From Halopseudomonas nanhaiensis (GTDB lineage: Bacteria > Pseudomonadota > Gammaproteobacteria > Pseudomonadales > Pseudomonadaceae), in assembly GCF_020025155.1 (NCBI RefSeq), contig NZ_CP073751.1, positions 1,488,001-1,552,000 of the forward strand: a stretch of 64,000 nucleotides of DNA. Direction: 5' to 3'. Shown here piece after piece: positions 43,321-51,449 of the stretch; position 1 is the stretch's first letter; each line of letters opens with the position of its first letter. Under the pieces are notes generated by a model. That model searched no databases, had not been told where the DNA came from, and saw only the letters and a program-made list of their open reading frames with translations. The position numbers and the translations under genes were made by a program.

Positions 43321-44499
43321 ATGACTCTACGACTGCTGCTCATCCTGGGTGGCCTCAGCGCATTCGGTCCATTGGCGATCGACCTCTATTTGCCCGCATT
43401 CCCGGCGATGGCTGCCTCCTTCGGCACCGACAGTGAACATATACAGCTCAGTCTGTCGGCCTATTTCATCGGTCTGGCATCCGGTCAGCTGTTCTACGGC
43501 CCCATTGCCGATCGCTTCGGTCGACGCAAGCCGCTGTTGTTCGGCATCGTTCTGTTCTTCCTGGCTTCGGTAGCCTGTGCCCTGGCTCCGTCGCTCGAAT
43601 GGCTGCTGGCAGCACGCTTTGCACAGGCACTGGGAGGCTGTGCCGGGATCGTGGTCAACCGGGCGGTCGTGCGCGACCTGTGCACGCCGATCGAAGCGGC
43701 CAAGGCCTTTTCACAGCTGATGCTGGTGATGGGCGTGGCGCCGATCCTGGCACCGCTCGGTGGCGGAGCGCTGCTGGCGCTCGGCGGCTGGCCGCTGATC
43801 TTCATTTTCCTGGCGGCATTTTCGGGTATCTACATTTTCGCCGTGTATTTCGGGCTGCCGGAGACGATTCCGCAGGGTGTGCCCCGGGCCGCCCTGTCCA
43901 GCGCTCTGGGTCGCTACGGCGGGCTGCTACGCGAGCGCGTGTTCATGTACCACGCACTCACTGGCGGTATCGCCATGGCCGGCATGTTTGCGTACATAGC
44001 GGGCTCGCCCTTTGTCTTCATCGAGTTGTACGGCATTCCGGCGGAGCATTTCGGCTGGTTCTTTGGCGCGAATGCGGCGGGCTTCATCCTGTTCGCCCAG
44101 TTCAATAGCCGGTTGCTGCGTCGCCGCTCGCCCGTGAAGGTGCTCAAGCTCACCGCGCTGATTTACATGGTGTGTACCCTGACGCTGCTGCTCGTCGCGT
44201 TGAGCAATCCGTCGACACTATGGGCGATGATGCCGCCGCTGTTCGGCAGCGTAGCGGTGATCGCGCTGGTGCTTCCCAATTCTTCGGCCAGTGCCATGGC
44301 CGGGCATGGTCATCAGGCGGGCGTGGCATCCGCGCTGATGGGAACAATGCAGTTCGTGATCGCCGGTATTACCTCGGCCTTGGTTGGCGTGCTGCACAAC
44401 GGCACTGCAGTGCCGATGGCCGGAGTCATGGCCACCTGCGGAGTGCTTGTGGTCATCATGGCGCGGCAGGCCCGGCGAGCCAGCGCCGCCCAAGTCTGA
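43321..44499 (+). CDS. Bcr/CflA family multidrug efflux MFS transporter
   Basis: 392 residues, 12 hydrophobic segments. The N-terminal SAFGPLAIDLYLPAFPAMAASF and the GPIADRFGRRKPLL loop (MFS motif A) are diagnostic of the Bcr/CflA drug:proton antiporters, which export compounds such as bicyclomycin, chloramphenicol or sulfonamides. The start is placed at 43321, where the first helix begins. The 3' end overlaps the convergent selB gene by 44 bp. Confidence 0.87.
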   Translation: MTLRLLLILGGLSAFGPLAIDLYLPAFPAMAASFGTDSEHIQLSLSAYFIGLASGQLFYGPIADRFGRRKPLLFGIVLFFLASVACALAPSLEWLLAARFAQALGGCAGIVVNRAVVRDLCTPIEAAKAFSQLMLVMGVAPILAPLGGGALLALGGWPLIFIFLAAFSGIYIFAVYFGLPETIPQGVPRAALSSALGRYGGLLRERVFMYHALTGGIAMAGMFAYIAGSPFVFIELYGIPAEHFGWFFGANAAGFILFAQFNSRLLRRRSPVKVLKLTALIYMVCTLTLLLVALSNPSTLWAMMPPLFGSVAVIALVLPNSSASAMAGHGHQAGVASALMGTMQFVIAGITSALVGVLHNGTAVPMAGVMATCGVLVVIMARQARRASAAQV

Positions 44500-46348
44500 G
44501 CCGGGTCAGGCCACTGCGATCGAAATACTCCAGCACCGCAATGCTGTGGTTGCGGCCGATCCGTGTCAGATCACGAAACTCCGCCGCGCTGAAGCCGCCA
44601 TCGGCGCTGCGGCTCGCGAGCTCCCGGGCAGATTGGTAGAGCTGGTCTGCCGAATCCGGCAGCAGATAGCGGTTGCGTCCGACAAACACCAGCCAGCCCA
44701 GCGCACTCAACTCATCCAGCGCCGTCTGCAAGCTGTCACGCTCGAGCTCAAGGGTATCAAGCAGCTCACCGATGACCGGCGGGCGCGGAGCACAGTGGTG
44801 GAACAGCGGCAGCATCCTGCCGAACATGTCCGCAGAGTCTGGACTCGGTTGTGGCTGATGACCGGGTCGATGCAGGCACGGTCCGCTCTGCACGATGCAG
44901 TGCTGATCCAGCACCTGGCGAACCGCGTGTGAGAGTAATGCGCTGGGCAGGCTGATTCCCAGGCGTCTGGCCAACGCGGGGAAGCTCGGCCCGCGCATCT
45001 GCGGATACTCGCCATGGAATGCATCGACGCTATCGAGCAAGCGATCCACGCAACGACCCAGCTGCGACCGTGCGCAGACCCAGCTTCCACGGCGATACAG
45101 CTGACCGTCCTCGACCAGCGGCGCAATCGTCGCTTCCATGGCCTGACTGCTGACGTGTCGCGAGCGCCGCACCCAGTCGAGGTCCAGCCCATCTTCCGAT
45201 ACCGCCAGCAAGGCTTGGAGGCAACGCAGAAGATTGACCTCATCCAGTGCGTGCAGAATGCGCAGGCGTGCGGGGGATTGTCGCCCGCGTCCGGGGGCGG
45301 TCGGATCGACCACGACGCCGCTTGCGACCAGTCGATGGGTAGTGGCATTACGGACGATGAAACGATCGCCGTGTCGGCAGGCCAACGGCTCGGCAAGAAT
45401 CCATTGCGCGTAGCCTTTTCCATCGTCGGTTTCGATGCCGCGCAGGGGAACGTGGCGGGCCGTTACGGTATTCCCCGCGAGATGCAGCTGCAGGTCTCCC
45501 CGCGTCGAGTGGCTGGTCAGCCGATCCATTCGTGCGTCCAGACGCCGGGTCTCCAGCCAGGCGTGCTCATCGAGCAACTGAGCGCCGCGTTCACAGCCCT
45601 GCTCGGGCAAATCCCCGGCCAGATCCAGCGCCCCGCGTTCGCCAGCCATCAATCGCTGCACCGGCCGACCGTGGCGCTGAACCGCGCGGATACGCACGAC
45701 TGCGCCGCCGGGCGTGAGCCTCAGCGACTGTCCGGGCGTGACGCAGCCCTGATATAGCGTTCCGGTTACCACATGGGCTGCGCCAGGACGGTGGAAATGC
45801 CGGTCGATCCAGAAACGTGACAACAGCTCCGTGTGCGGGGGCGGACAGTGCGCAGCCAGGGCGCTTAGTATCTGGCGCAGGCGATCGATTCCAAGCCCGG
45901 TCAAGCTGTCGACTTCGACGGTCTGCACCGAGGGGATGCCGGCCTCCGCGAGCCGCTGGCGCACATCCTGCGCCAGCGCTTCGCGCTGCTCGAGCGTCGC
46001 GCGGAACACCTTGGTCAGCACGACGACCACGCGGTCGATGGCCAGCAGGTGTATCAGCTCGATGTGCTCAAGCGTCTGCGGCATCGCGCCTTCGTCGGCC
46101 GCGACGACGAGCATCACCGCGTCCACGGCACCCACGCCGGCCATCATGGTGCGCATGAAACGCTCATGTCCCGGCACGTCGACGATATCGACTTCGGTGC
46201 CGTCAGCGGTTTGCAGCCAGGCGAAGCCCAGCTCGATGCTCAGGCCACGCCGGCGTTCCTCTTCGGTGCGATCGGTGTCCTGCCCGGTCAGCGCGCGGAC
46301 CAGCGACGTTTTACCGTGGTCGACGTGGCCGGCCGTGGCGACGATCAC
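44456..46348 (-). CDS. selB: Selenocysteine-specific translation elongation factor SelB
   Basis: 630 residues. The GTPase domain has ATAGHVDHGKTSLVRALTG (P loop), DRTEEERRRGLSIELGFAW (switch I), DVPGHERFMRTMMAG (G3) and VLTK (G4 region). The GLSIELGFAW signature separates SelB from EF-Tu. The C-terminal third is the tandem winged-helix region that binds the SECIS RNA hairpin. It starts at a GTG whose GTGA overlaps the selA stop by 4 bp, so selA and selB are translationally coupled. It delivers Sec-tRNA to in-frame UGA codons, one of which lies in the UGSC gene just upstream. Confidence 0.93.
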   Translation of the reverse strand: MIVATAGHVDHGKTSLVRALTGQDTDRTEEERRRGLSIELGFAWLQTADGTEVDIVDVPGHERFMRTMMAGVGAVDAVMLVVAADEGAMPQTLEHIELIHLLAIDRVVVVLTKVFRATLEQREALAQDVRQRLAEAGIPSVQTVEVDSLTGLGIDRLRQILSALAAHCPPPHTELLSRFWIDRHFHRPGAAHVVTGTLYQGCVTPGQSLRLTPGGAVVRIRAVQRHGRPVQRLMAGERGALDLAGDLPEQGCERGAQLLDEHAWLETRRLDARMDRLTSHSTRGDLQLHLAGNTVTARHVPLRGIETDDGKGYAQWILAEPLACRHGDRFIVRNATTHRLVASGVVVDPTAPGRGRQSPARLRILHALDEVNLLRCLQALLAVSEDGLDLDWVRRSRHVSSQAMEATIAPLVEDGQLYRRGSWVCARSQLGRCVDRLLDSVDAFHGEYPQMRGPSFPALARRLGISLPSALLSHAVRQVLDQHCIVQSGPCLHRPGHQPQPSPDSADMFGRMLPLFHHCAPRPPVIGELLDTLELERDSLQTALDELSALGWLVFVGRNRYLLPDSADQLYQSARELASRSADGGFSAAEFRDLTRIGRNHSIAVLEYFDRSGLTRLRLGRRWLAGPAAP

Positions 46349-47733
46349 CGTTCGGCCCGCAGTTGCTTGCAGAAGGTGGCTTCGTCCTCCAGACAACGGC
46401 AGTCGAGAATCACCGACGCGTCCTGCACCCGTCCGATGACCGGCACCGGGAGCGCGCGTAACCGTGCAGCCAGTGCGGTGAGCCGACTGCCCGAGCCCTT
46501 GCTCGGGCCCACAGGGCGTACGATCAGCGCCTGACTATGCAGATGCTCGATGGGCAACGCGCCGCTGCCGATCTGCCCCATGACTGGCTCGCTGGAGACG
46601 CTATAGTCGCTGCCGGCCCAGGTGGCGACGATATCGAGCAGACGTGCGCATTGCGCGGCGACATCGGTCTGCGAGCGGCTCAATGCCCGCAGGCTGGGCA
46701 GCCGCTCAGCGAGGCGATCCGGATCGGCATACAGGCGCAACACAGCTTCGAGCGCGGCAATCGTCAACTTGTCACAACGCAGCGCTCGCTTGAGCGGGTT
46801 CTTCTTTAGTCGATCGATGAGGTCGCGGCGTCCAATGATGATGCCGCACTGGGGCCCGCCCAACAGCTTGTCGCCGCTGAACGAAACCAGGTCGACGCCG
46901 TTGCCGAGGCTGGCCATCGGCGTCGGTTCCGCCGGGAGGCCCCAGCGACTCAGATCCACCAGGCTGCCGCTCCCCAGATCGACCGCATAGGGTATGCCGT
47001 GCTCCTGTGCCAGGTGCGCAAGTCGCTGTTCCGGCACACTGGCGGTGAAACCGACGACCTTGTAGTTGCTGGTGTGGACGGTCATCAGTATGCCTGTGCG
47101 CTGTCCTATCGCATCGGCATAATCGGCCAGGTGGGTGCGGTTGGTGGTACCTACCTCACGCAACCTGCACTGGGCTCGCTGCATGACGTCCGGCATGCGG
47201 AAGGCGCCGCCGATTTCCACCAGCTCACCGCGGGAAACGGGTACTTCCTTGCCCTTGGCCAGGGTGTTCAACATCAACAGCACGGCGGCTGCGTTGTTGT
47301 TGACCACGGTGGCTGCTTCGGCGCCGGTGAGCCTGCACAACCAGCTCTCCAGATGCGCATCCCTATCGCCTCGCCGGCCGGTATGCAGATCAAACTCCAG
47401 ATTGCTCGCGCCGCGGGCAACGGCCGCCATGGCCTCGATGGCCTCTTCCGGCAGCGGCGCGCGACCGAGATTGGTGTGCAGCACGGTGCCGGTCAGGTTG
47501 AAGACCTGGCGCAGCGAGGGAGATAAAACAGCCGTCAGGCGCGCCTGTACCGACTCGCAGAATGCGTCAGCGTCGAAAGCCACTGCTTCGGCACGCAGGT
47601 GCGACAGCTGTTCGGCGACGATCTCCTTGAGCAGCGTCTTCCCGTGCTGAACGGAGAACGCGCTGATGACCGGCCAGCGCAGCAGCTGATCGACCGAGGG
47701 TAGGGTTCGGCGGGGGTCGGTTATGTGTTCCAT
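46345..47733 (-). CDS. selA: L-seryl-tRNA(Sec) selenium transferase SelA
   Basis: 462 residues, the usual length. It is a PLP enzyme of the fold-type I class: N-terminal domain, the NNNAAAVLLMLN and RGELVEIGGAFRMPDV segments, and the lysine that binds PLP in SFSGDKLLGGPQCG. It converts Ser-tRNA(Sec) to Sec-tRNA(Sec) using selenophosphate. It lies 180 bp downstream of the UGSC selenoprotein gene on the same strand. A foldback in that gap could attenuate or process the transcript. Confidence 0.94.
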   Translation of the reverse strand: MEHITDPRRTLPSVDQLLRWPVISAFSVQHGKTLLKEIVAEQLSHLRAEAVAFDADAFCESVQARLTAVLSPSLRQVFNLTGTVLHTNLGRAPLPEEAIEAMAAVARGASNLEFDLHTGRRGDRDAHLESWLCRLTGAEAATVVNNNAAAVLLMLNTLAKGKEVPVSRGELVEIGGAFRMPDVMQRAQCRLREVGTTNRTHLADYADAIGQRTGILMTVHTSNYKVVGFTASVPEQRLAHLAQEHGIPYAVDLGSGSLVDLSRWGLPAEPTPMASLGNGVDLVSFSGDKLLGGPQCGIIIGRRDLIDRLKKNPLKRALRCDKLTIAALEAVLRLYADPDRLAERLPSLRALSRSQTDVAAQCARLLDIVATWAGSDYSVSSEPVMGQIGSGALPIEHLHSQALIVRPVGPSKGSGSRLTALAARLRALPVPVIGRVQDASVILDCRCLEDEATFCKQLRAER

Positions 47734-47913: not shown

Positions 47914-48444
47914 TCACGTGGGTTGTCTGGTCAGCGCCTCCACAATGTCGGCAAACGCCTGATCAGCCAGCGCGCGCAACTCGTCGTCGGTACGGTCCTG
48001 AATCGGATGCGGTACGAATACCATGTCCGGACTCATGCCCAGTGCCTTGCTCTGCAGCGCCGCTGCCTCGACAAACTCGCTCGAAGCAATGCCGACGCCC
48101 GGGATGCTACGGCCTTCGAGGTCGCCTATATCATGCATACAGCACGACGTACAGGAACCTCAGTCAGCCAATCCTTCTACCAGAACGTCACATTCACTGG
48201 CTATGCGTTGCTTGAGTTCGGTCGGAGCGATCCGGGCGAACGTCGGCTTGCGATAACGCTTCACTTCGATGCCGCGCTCTGCGAGCAGGGCGTCCAGGCG
48301 ATTGAGAAACACATCGCCGCGAGACTTGGAGATGTCCAGCAATCCAACGGTCAATCCATCCAGGCTGGCCGGCCTGGCACTCAGGCTGCGGCCAGCCGGG
48401 GACGATTCGGCGGTTGGGTCGAGCAGTGTGGTCGGCGAATTCAT
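47914..48444 (-). CDS. UGSC family selenoprotein (in-frame TGA read as selenocysteine)
   Basis: Two frames that look like separate ORFs are one gene interrupted by TGA at 48160-48162. Reading through gives 176 residues, with U95 in EGLAD-U-GSC followed by TSCC and then MHDIGDLEGRSIPGVGIASS. The UGSC motif and the surrounding sequence identify the UGSC selenoprotein family first noticed in marine metagenomes. The N-terminal half is an alpha/beta region (LTVGLLDISKSRGDVFL). The start overlaps the upstream stop as ATGA, with AAGGAGG seven bases before it inside the last codons of that gene. A SECIS-like hairpin follows the TGA. Catalytic role is unknown; a redox function is likely. Confidence 0.88.
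48130..48148 (-). promoter_or_regulatory. Candidate bacterial SECIS hairpin
   Basis: Starting 12 bases after the TGA, GTCGTGC pairs with GCATGAT (7 bp, two G-U pairs) around the 5-base loop TGTAT. The second loop base is a guanine and the loop begins 18 bases past the TGA. Bacterial SECIS elements require a small loop with G in its first two bases about 16-37 bases from the UGA; both conditions are met. The extent of pairing was judged by eye. Confidence 0.65.
48160..48162 (-). other. In-frame TGA predicted to encode selenocysteine
   Basis: Minus-strand codons around it read Gly-Leu-Ala-Asp-TGA-Gly-Ser-Cys-Thr-Ser-Cys-Cys. The frame continues uninterrupted for 81 more codons with conserved-looking sequence. 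A SECIS-like hairpin follows and selA and selB lie downstream on the same strand. Confidence 0.85.
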
Positions 48445-49895
48445 GCCGTTACCTCCTTGCTTACCGGGGTGGAGCCGGTCGGACCGGAAGCGGCCCAGCC
48501 AGCGATGACGGCGGAGAACAGACCGGCCGGGCCACCGGCCCGTACGATCAGCAACCCGCCGGGTCGAAACTTGGGAATTGCGGCATCGGCGAAATTCGCC
48601 GGCATGCCTTCGGCAATGCCGCCTGCGCCAACGATCAGATCCTTGCCGGGCATGACCATCAGCTTGTCCAGTTCCTGGCGCAGCCGCGCCTTGCTCCAGC
48701 CCGCTTCGATGAACACTCTGGCGTGTTCCGGCGAGACCACCAGCATCGCATCGCCGTGCATGGCCAGTTTGTAATGGTCAACCGCGCGTAGTGAGAGGGC
48801 AAAGCTCCTGGCGAGCGATTCCGGGGTGCGTGACTTTTGATCGAGAATGCCCTGAACCCCTTCGGCAGCGAACAGGGTTACCACCGATTGCTCGCTGGTG
48901 AAGCCACGCTCCACTGCCAGGGAATCCCACTCACTGTCTTCGGACTCGGCAAAGCAGAAGGTGTATTTGCCTGGCGTGCCCAGGGTGGCGCGATCGATTT
49001 CGCCCGGCCGACCACCGCCGACGTTACGCACCACCAACTGCAGCGCGCGACCGATACTCGCATTGGCCCGGTTGCCCTGGCCGAGGGCATTGACGCCTGA
49101 GTTCATGCCGATCTGGCGCGCGGCAGGGCCGTTCACCAGGACCAGCGGCCCCGCGAACATGGTGGTGCAGAGCAGGCCGTGCATGCCGAACTCATCGATC
49201 AGTGCGGCCTCCACTGCAGCCAGCACGACGGGCATGTATTCCGGTTTGCAGCCGGCCATGACGGCGTTTATCGCGACCTTCTCCACGGTACAGGGCACCA
49301 GGTCCGGCGGCATCAGTCCGAGGACGTCATCAGGCTTGCGTGTGGTGCCCTGGAGCATGCGGTAGACGCGTTCGGGAGTGGGCGGGACGACCGGCAGCCC
49401 GTCACTCCAGCCGCGATCGAAACACGCCTCGATGGGATCCTCGCTGTCGCCGATTTCGACTTCGCGCGAGGCGAACCGCACTGCACCGAAACGAATTGCC
49501 AGCCGATCAGCTACCCCCGGGTCCTGGGTTTTCGACCCGCAACCGGGGCGCGAAGCCGGTAACGCTGCGCCCAGATTCTGGCAGCCGCTGATGCGCTCCC
49601 AGTCTTCGCGAAACCAGCCGTAGGTACGCTCGGTCTCGCTGCCGTTGTCCCGGCGAATGAGCGTAGGGACTATTTCGCAGTCCAGTTGCCAGGACCACGC
49701 CAGATCATGATCGTCGATCTGAGTGGCGTCGCCGGCGTTGAAATCGGCGATGTCCTGGGCCACCACCGTTACCGGAACTCCGGCTGCGGATAGCTCGGAC
49801 AGCACCGGCTCGATCAGGGCGCACGTCGGACAGGCGCGTTTGACGATGACGATCAGGCCGTCGGGAAGCGTGGGCAATGCGTGATTGTTTGTCAT
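48441..49895 (-). CDS. Thioredoxin-like domain fused to a large domain of unknown function (UGSC partner)
   Basis: 484 residues. About 1-110 is thioredoxin-like: LIVIVKRACPTCALIEPVL has a CPTC redox motif at the end of the first strand, and EIVPTLIRR carries the conserved cis-proline. The remaining ~350 residues are a domain I associate with UGSC neighbourhoods: GWSDGLPVVPPTPERVYRML, VAINAVMAGCKPEYMPVVLA, VNGPAARQIGMNSGVNALG. The conserved cysteine in MAGCKPEY is a candidate partner for redox exchange. It has no signal peptide, so is cytoplasmic. Its last codons contain the ribosome site of the selenoprotein gene. The ATG at 49895 has AAGGG directly adjacent, an awkward spacing, so the true start is not certain. 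Confidence 0.72.
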   Translation of the reverse strand: MTNNHALPTLPDGLIVIVKRACPTCALIEPVLSELSAAGVPVTVVAQDIADFNAGDATQIDDHDLAWSWQLDCEIVPTLIRRDNGSETERTYGWFREDWERISGCQNLGAALPASRPGCGSKTQDPGVADRLAIRFGAVRFASREVEIGDSEDPIEACFDRGWSDGLPVVPPTPERVYRMLQGTTRKPDDVLGLMPPDLVPCTVEKVAINAVMAGCKPEYMPVVLAAVEAALIDEFGMHGLLCTTMFAGPLVLVNGPAARQIGMNSGVNALGQGNRANASIGRALQLVVRNVGGGRPGEIDRATLGTPGKYTFCFAESEDSEWDSLAVERGFTSEQSVVTLFAAEGVQGILDQKSRTPESLARSFALSLRAVDHYKLAMHGDAMLVVSPEHARVFIEAGWSKARLRQELDKLMVMPGKDLIVGAGGIAEGMPANFADAAIPKFRPGGLLIVRAGGPAGLFSAVIAGWAASGPTGSTPVSKEVTA

Positions 49896-49982: not shown

Positions 49983-51449
49983 TTACCACGCCGCGGATAA
50001 CCCCGGCTGATGCTGGCCGGATTGACGCGCTACCGGGGCGCGGGTCAGGCCTGACTGGTTCAACAGGGCAGACAGGCGCACGTCGGCGCCCAGCACATAG
50101 CGCAGGCGTCCGTCCTGACCGAACACCGGCGCGGATAGCGTGAAGCAGAAGGTGTCCGTGGCCGTCGAGCGGTAGACCGGACTGATGAACGGCTTGAGGC
50201 TGTCCCGCACGCTCCTGAACCAGGGCCGCGTGGCCCAGTTTCTTCCGCGCACGCTCTCTCTTGGCACGCCTGCCAGGTCATCGGCAAAGATATTGTCACT
50301 GACCTGAGTCCCATCGGCTGCGACCAGATACATCAGCTCGAGGCGATGATCGCGGCCCATGTACCGCTGCATAGCCTGTTCGGCCTGGGCGATGCCTTCA
50401 AGCAGAGCGGGTTCTGCTGCGAATTGCTCGACGCGGTCGCGAATCTGCTGATGCACCGTGAGCTGAAAATGGCCAAGGCCATCGAGCAGGTGATCGCCTT
50501 CGCTGCGCACGGCTGCGCTGTGCTGACTGACCTGAACGGCCTTGCGCAGTAGCTGGTGGGCTACGCCGGAGACGTTCTGCACATCTTCACTCACCGAGCG
50601 AACCGCTGCGCCAATCTGTTCGGTGCCGCTGGCCATACTCGACATGCGCTGATCGAGCTGTTCCATGCCCTGCACCGCATCGGCCAGACGCTGATCGACC
50701 CGCAGGATGCCGTCACGCCCCTCGGCTATGGAGCGATGCATGCTCTCGCCAGCCTCGTTCAGCCGCTGCATGCCGCCCCGAAAGCCCTCGATGATGGCGC
50801 TGACCCGGTCTGTCGCCTCGGTTGTGTTCCCGGCCAATCGCCGCACTTCCTCTGCTACCACGGCGAATCCACGGCCCTGCTCACCTGCACGAGCGGCCTC
50901 GATGGCAGCGTTCAATGCGAGCAGATTGGTCTGCTGTGAAATGGTCGCAATCATGCCGATGACTTGAGTGACTTCTTCGATCTGCTTGCCGAGCCGTTGA
51001 ATTTCCGTGGCGAGAGAGCCTTCCGCGCCCTGAATGGTTTCGACCTGGCAGAGCACCAGGCGACTATCCGCCTCGCACTGCTTCAGCTTGTGAGTGACTT
51101 CACCGGTCAGCAGTGCAATGGCAGAAGCGCCAGGCACCAGTTCGGATTCGAGGGTGGTGCTGACTTCTTCGATGGCGCTGGCGATCATCTCCGATGACTG
51201 TGACAGCTGCTCGCCGTTGCGCTCCGTCTCACCGGCGATTGAAGCCAGCTGGGGGGCGTGAGCGGCTATACCGACAGCCGCCTCCAGGCTGCTGGCGATG
51301 CGACTGTGGAGCGTGTCCACAAACTCGGGCAGCGAGGTCAACGCGCCTTGCTGCGCGGGAATCGCTACGCTGAGGTCGAGATTGGTAAATAGCCGCTGGC
51401 AGGCAGCCGCGTCGGTCGTTGAAAGGCGTAAAAGGTTGAAAAAGCCCAT
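49983..51449 (-). CDS. Cytoplasmic methyl-accepting chemotaxis protein with C-terminal Cache-like domain
   Basis: 488 residues with no transmembrane segment. The signalling hairpin is in the first half, with the tip [20 protein letters not shown] and methylation helices on both sides. Residues from about 345 to 470 form a Cache/PDC-like sensor: [63 protein letters not shown]. Cache domains normally sit at the N terminus outside the cell, so a C-terminal cytoplasmic one is unusual. A good RpoN promoter lies upstream. Confidence 0.85.

Follow-up and report, generated by a model that had tools for sequence, protein, structure and literature searches.

A predicted UGSC-family selenoprotein gene beside selA and selB in Halopseudomonas nanhaiensis

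The UGSC selenoproteins had already been named by 2008, when a survey counted 255 selenocysteine (Sec) forms and 21 cysteine forms (PMC2398784); later reviews list the family too. A large survey of the ocean and other waters attributes 8.2% of 4324 selenoprotein genes to UGSC (PMC9402790), whilst members in the Geodermatophilaceae are described as encoding Sec by UAG (PMC5330540). Here we consider a member of this family in H. nanhaiensis, encoded within a stretch of 64,000 nucleotides (C1:1488001-1552000, hereafter the window) of a genome assembled as one contig of 3.65 Mb at 100% completeness. The original prediction, made from the letters of the window, had described the family as one without an established reaction, and a 2026 review still lists it among those with largely uncharacterized functions (PMC13188914). 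Its supposed prevalence in marine metagenomes does not stand, however: PMC2398784 has more UGSC members in non-marine than in marine samples, and many genome records carry the family. Within the literature library searched, no publication joined Halopseudomonas with a selenoprotein.

The read-through gene and its hairpin

The gene occupies 47914..48444 on the minus strand. When the TGA at 48160..48162 (-), its sole internal stop, is read as Sec, the frame runs for 176 residues to a final TGA at 47914-47916, placing Sec at residue 95 within the motif ADUGSCTSCC and cysteines at 98, 101 and 102; this is the single gene, with the same motif, that had been proposed by joining two minus-strand frames. 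Under translation table 11 the frame is split into two open reading frames (ORFs) of 94 amino acids (aa; 48160-48444) and 74 aa (47914-48138). The proposed family also holds, as the read-through protein scores 152.7 bits against NF041046 of NCBIfam (curated cut-off 125) and 149.2 bits against PF24696, the UGSC family of Pfam (curated cut-off 25). Scored separately, one half-frame matches the N-terminal and the other the C-terminal part of both profiles, such that the two sides of the TGA belong to one continuous family. Since the joined protein passes both cut-offs and its halves match opposite profile ends, the joined frame is more than a product of chance.

The same codon recurs in relatives. 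Among 96 genomes (our own, 36 of the same genus and 59 others), PF24696 is present in 28, namely our own, 26 of the 36 and one of the 59, and exactly one internal stop, always TGA, is found in all 28. A scan of named genomes returned at least 595 stretches, at least 579 of them encoding relatives, of which we took the best 80 (the named loci, L032-L111); these form part of 100 fetched loci (L012-L111), certain contigs being present twice. The pattern D-codon-GSCT-x-C fits 99 of the 100, L019 being the exception, and the codon is TGA in 99 of 99. Cysteine forms exist as well (P0005 and P0006), and homologues thus align across the site with either residue. The motif codons themselves, U95-G-S-C98-T-S-C101-C102, span 48139..48162 (-), and in an alignment of 39 rows (32 of the named loci, the window and six proteins) G96, S97, C98, T99 and C101 are invariant. 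Of the extra cysteines suggested to make up a redox centre, C98 and C101 are thus constant in this alignment, but a three-thiol centre is not a family feature, because residue 102 varies: 62 of the 80 named loci have Cys there and the other 18 have Ser.

Bacterial selenoprotein genes typically carry a hairpin shortly 3' of the UGA, with a G in its apical loop. A figure legend of PMC1088965 names this apical-loop guanosine. A hairpin resembling such a selenocysteine insertion sequence (SECIS) lies directly 3' of our TGA (48120..48159, minus strand), with an apical stem of seven pairs (48142-48148 with 48130-48136, or +12 to +18 with +24 to +30) that encloses the five-base loop UGUAU. Across 65 distinct sequences drawn from 99 loci and the window, the loop G at +20 is present in 65 of 65, stem pairs 2 to 7 are retained in 62 to 65, and the outermost pair is kept in 54. 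Two pairs change on both sides at third codon positions, G-C to A-T at +12/+30 and C-G to T-A at +18/+24. With kinship among the sequences uncorrected, paired cells number 441 of 455 and complete stems 52 of 65, against maxima of 437 and 48, respectively, across 1000 synonymous-codon shuffles.

The profile matches, the conserved TGA, the cysteine forms, the SECIS-like hairpin and the presence of selA, selB, selC and selD in the genome support the identification of a UGSC-family selenoprotein gene, insofar as sequence can establish it, and the TGA is almost certainly a site of Sec insertion.

An apparent operon with a near-constant partner

Upstream on the same strand lies a gene for a protein of 484 aa (48441..49895), whose stop overlaps the UGSC start by four nucleotides (ATGA). 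This partner combines an N-terminal thioredoxin-like domain at 49581..49862 (-), with a CPTC motif at C22/C25, and a C-terminal domain of no known family, of which some 340 residues are conserved. It stands directly upstream of UGSC in 77 of the 80 named loci (24 of these 77, with the window, make up the partner alignment), and the named near relatives of both genes include Halopseudomonas. A functional pairing of the two proteins is, in our view, very likely. In one genome the partner gene is split into two overlapping matches (G034:C1:740457-741880), possibly through a frameshift or an assembly error, beside complete UGSC and selA matches. We also considered a fumarase-like partner, as class I fumarases head the Foldseek rows (best E 8.2e-4), but the template-modelling (TM) score was about 0.2 and the root-mean-square deviation mostly about 16; the idea was dropped when the C-terminal profile, compared with 24 fumarases (L121-L144), gave a P of 0.41.

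Downstream, on the same strand, follow selA, encoding L-seryl-tRNA(Sec) selenium transferase (46345..47733; TIGR00474, 574.7 bits, cut-off 267.9), and selB, encoding the Sec-specific elongation factor (44456..46348; TIGR00475, 283 bits, cut-off 242.25), giving the apparent operon order partner-UGSC-selA-selB. The mechanically called selB ORF starts at a TTG at 46396, 48 nucleotides before the likely GTG start (46346-46348), and the TIGR00475 match begins at residue 17 of that ORF. The probable overlap of selA and selB is again of four nucleotides (GTGA, 46345-46348) and resembles that of partner and UGSC, so that the two overlaps suggest translational coupling twice in the operon. Between 44300 and 50200, promoter-like and terminator-like sites were not clearly above shuffles (1 against a mean of 0.8, and 4 against a mean of 2.7, standard deviation 1.6), and neither Rfam at gathering scores nor ARAGORN gave matches in the window.

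The remaining machinery is encoded elsewhere on the contig, selC at C1:2381239-2381329 (77.1 bits, cut-off 47) and selD at C1:1557565-1558479, the selD match being free of internal stops. Right after selD, about 6.5 kb past the right end of the window, is an ORF (L010:2481-3644) which we take to be the tRNA 2-selenouridine synthase SelU/MnmH; on that assumption, selenophosphate may also feed tRNA modification. None of the five molybdopterin-oxidoreductase or 11 AhpC/TSA-type matches in the genome contains an internal stop, these being the other families scanned, and UGSC may be the sole selenoprotein of this genome.

Within the genus, UGSC and selA are kept or missing together. Of 37 same-genus genomes (our own included), 27 have UGSC with a full-length selA, nine have neither, and in the remaining one (G019, 79% complete) the sole match is a partial selA that scores under the cut-off. 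Among the 26 relatives of the same genus that carry UGSC, the two genes adjoin in 22; in G015, G020 and G023 they are distant or on separate contigs, and the linkage is thus not fixed within the genus. In 23 other genomes of the bacterial family selA occurs in 12 and UGSC in none, so that Sec is presumably used there in other proteins. In two Acetobacteraceae loci from metagenome-assembled genomes (L082:3494-4488 and L083:8001-10549), a selB match sits just downstream of UGSC on the opposite strand, unlike the arrangement in the window.

No pathway could be read from the neighbouring ORF clusters of the 80 named loci beyond the partner, the UGSC halves, SelA and SelB. The most widespread of the others are ORFs antisense to the UGSC gene (36 loci), a 421-aa cluster (17 loci) and a cluster judged by eye to be short-chain-dehydrogenase-like (17 loci), the latter two occurring on both strands. 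Just upstream of the partner, the same strand of the window carries an ORF (49983-51449) that is presumably a methyl-accepting chemoreceptor.

A putative two-protein reductase and its alternatives

The predicted UGSC model, built from 39 sequences (predicted local distance difference test 89.7, predicted TM score 0.84), alternates strands at 32-37, 60-65, 87-93, 116-121 and 140-144 with helices, making five beta-alpha units, with Sec95 lying after strand three and before helix three; a structure search with it returned generic flavodoxin-like domains. In the thioredoxin fold, the redox motif sits at the first helix. That position of the motif, along with the thioredoxin order of strands and helices, is absent from the predicted UGSC model, which accordingly does not have the thioredoxin-like fold suggested in PMC2398784.

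We posit that UGSC and its partner most likely form a two-protein, selenium-dependent selenol/thiol reductase, because a UxxC motif at a helix start is combined with invariant C98 and C101 and with a near-constant, thioredoxin-domain partner expressed from an overlapping frame. SelB and Sec-tRNA(Sec), steered by the hairpin that directly follows the codon, would insert Sec at the TGA, a step for which the case is strong, and the two proteins would be co-produced from the apparent operon. Sec95, at the start of the helix that follows the third strand, could then attack or reduce a substrate, for which the C-terminal domain of the partner might provide the binding site or a cofactor site, and Cys98 would resolve Sec95 as a selenenylsulfide. 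The C22-P-T-C25 motif of the partner's thioredoxin domain may re-reduce the Sec95/Cys98 pair and so supply electrons, although we consider the odds of this recharging step to be about even. For the explanation as a whole, that is Sec insertion, an operon with the partner and a two-protein reductase, we would put the probability at roughly 0.65.

Several observations weigh against this explanation. In the window gene itself the hairpin energy has a z-score of -2.6, only the third lowest among 146 segments, which makes the single-sequence signal modest, and the synonymous shuffles leave relatedness uncorrected. For the partner encoded in the window, the sequence evidence of a thioredoxin domain is weak, with a best Pfam match of 0.24 and no NCBIfam match at E<=1, and two named loci (L092 and L100) show no partner in the locus DNA examined. 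Finally, selA stands away from UGSC in the three relatives mentioned above and UGSC lies at a contig end in G010, whilst the examined DNA of the 80 named loci contains selA in only 26 and selB in 29, a few of the selB matches being weak and perhaps other GTPases.

The alternative that survives best is that of a generic UxxC antioxidant, akin to a peroxidase or disulfide reductase, with no specific small substrate and a partner serving only as electron donor. It draws on the motif itself, on the thioredoxin-like domain of the partner and on PMC2398784 and PMC13188914, which group the family with thiol redox proteins. The predicted fold is not thioredoxin-like, however, and the conserved 340 or so C-terminal residues of the partner exceed what an electron donor would need; we give this explanation a chance worth keeping in mind, but a minor one.

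Somewhat less probable still is a distant kinship, or a functional equivalence, of UGSC with the selenoprotein subunit of D-proline and glycine reductases (PrdB/GrdB, PF07355), in which case its Sec would reductively cleave a C-N or C-X bond of a substrate held by the partner. The UGxC motif of PrdB/GrdB aligns in register with UGSC, and this early agreement of profiles encouraged the idea of homology, which was lost once the motif was masked: 98 of 120 PrdB proteins are similar at E<0.01 unmasked, and 0 of 116 with the four motif residues masked (four proteins without the searched motif excluded). The resemblance therefore depends on the motif and leaves common ancestry unproven; convergence may account for it. 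Moreover, hhalign gives a probability of just 9%; within HMMER's filters and up to E<=10, PF07355 is unmatched by seven of seven UGSC proteins, and it has no match in the H. nanhaiensis genome; and among 13 of the 120 listed PrdB proteins, which make up our PrdB alignment, Asparaginase (best 0.0007, four members) outscores UGSC (best 0.0057, two members). The partner subunit of PrdB/GrdB is the pyruvoyl-type PrdA/GrdE (PF09338). When 25 proteins of the partner family described here were searched against Pfam at E<=10, where no profile comparison was made, neither PF09338 nor another PrdA-type family was matched. Across 299 genomes of the phylum, five (L112-L116) contain open frames of 312-326 aa with weak matches to the C-terminal part of PF07355 (GrdB) and no internal stop. 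It is equally doubtful, though perhaps worth considering, that in aerobic bacteria UGSC and its thioredoxin-bearing partner form a two-component selenium reductase that cleaves a specific small molecule by a proline/glycine-reductase-like mechanism, though with a partner unrelated to that of those reductases, and that Halopseudomonas keeps all its Sec machinery for this alone.

Of the readings of the codon itself, insertion of Trp, or general suppression of the TGA, is very improbable. In the top-ranking 120 of 307 database homologues, seven cross the site, three of them with Trp, two with Arg and two with Cys; as codes that reassign TGA print W, the Trp rows are probably artefacts of the choice of translation, and the genome encodes selA, selB, selC and selD and uses TGA as an ordinary terminator for UGSC, partner and selA. 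Least credible of all is a true stop or fixed nonsense mutation leaving two fragments or a pseudogene. In its favour, 107 of those 120 homologues are recorded as ending at the residue before the TGA (the other six neither end there nor cross). Against it, the DNA runs on in frame in the loci read, with conserved sequence in register on both sides, synonymous-site pairing after the codon and Cys forms running across it; we read these short records as gene-caller truncations, of the kind the original prediction had anticipated.

Comparison with known selenoproteins

The locus makes a simple system for experiments. Its genome is complete and its genus includes named strains in culture; selA and selB stand with the gene in an apparent operon, the partner is near-constant, and some same-genus relatives lack both UGSC and selA. 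If UGSC is the sole selenoprotein, deletion of selA or selB should equal deletion of UGSC in effect.

Regardless of its chemistry, the gene is a member of a selenoprotein family already named, and not a new kind of selenoprotein. What this analysis adds is a testable framework, made up of the predicted fold, a partner that bears a thioredoxin domain, the apparent operon, and the way in which UGSC and selA co-segregate across one genus. PrdB, with 241 residues against the 176 of UGSC, has the in-register motif in common with it. The thioredoxin-fold UxxC selenoproteins (Trx-like, Prx-like and DsbA-like) likewise share the redox motif; the fold predicted for UGSC sets it apart from them, as its five beta-alpha units alternate and Sec follows strand three. 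From the UGSC family itself (NF041046/PF24696) we found no essential difference: the gene shares with it a full-length profile match, a Sec codon in UGSC, a SECIS-like hairpin and the existence of Cys forms, and its context adds an operon linked to selA and selB and a partner with a thioredoxin domain.
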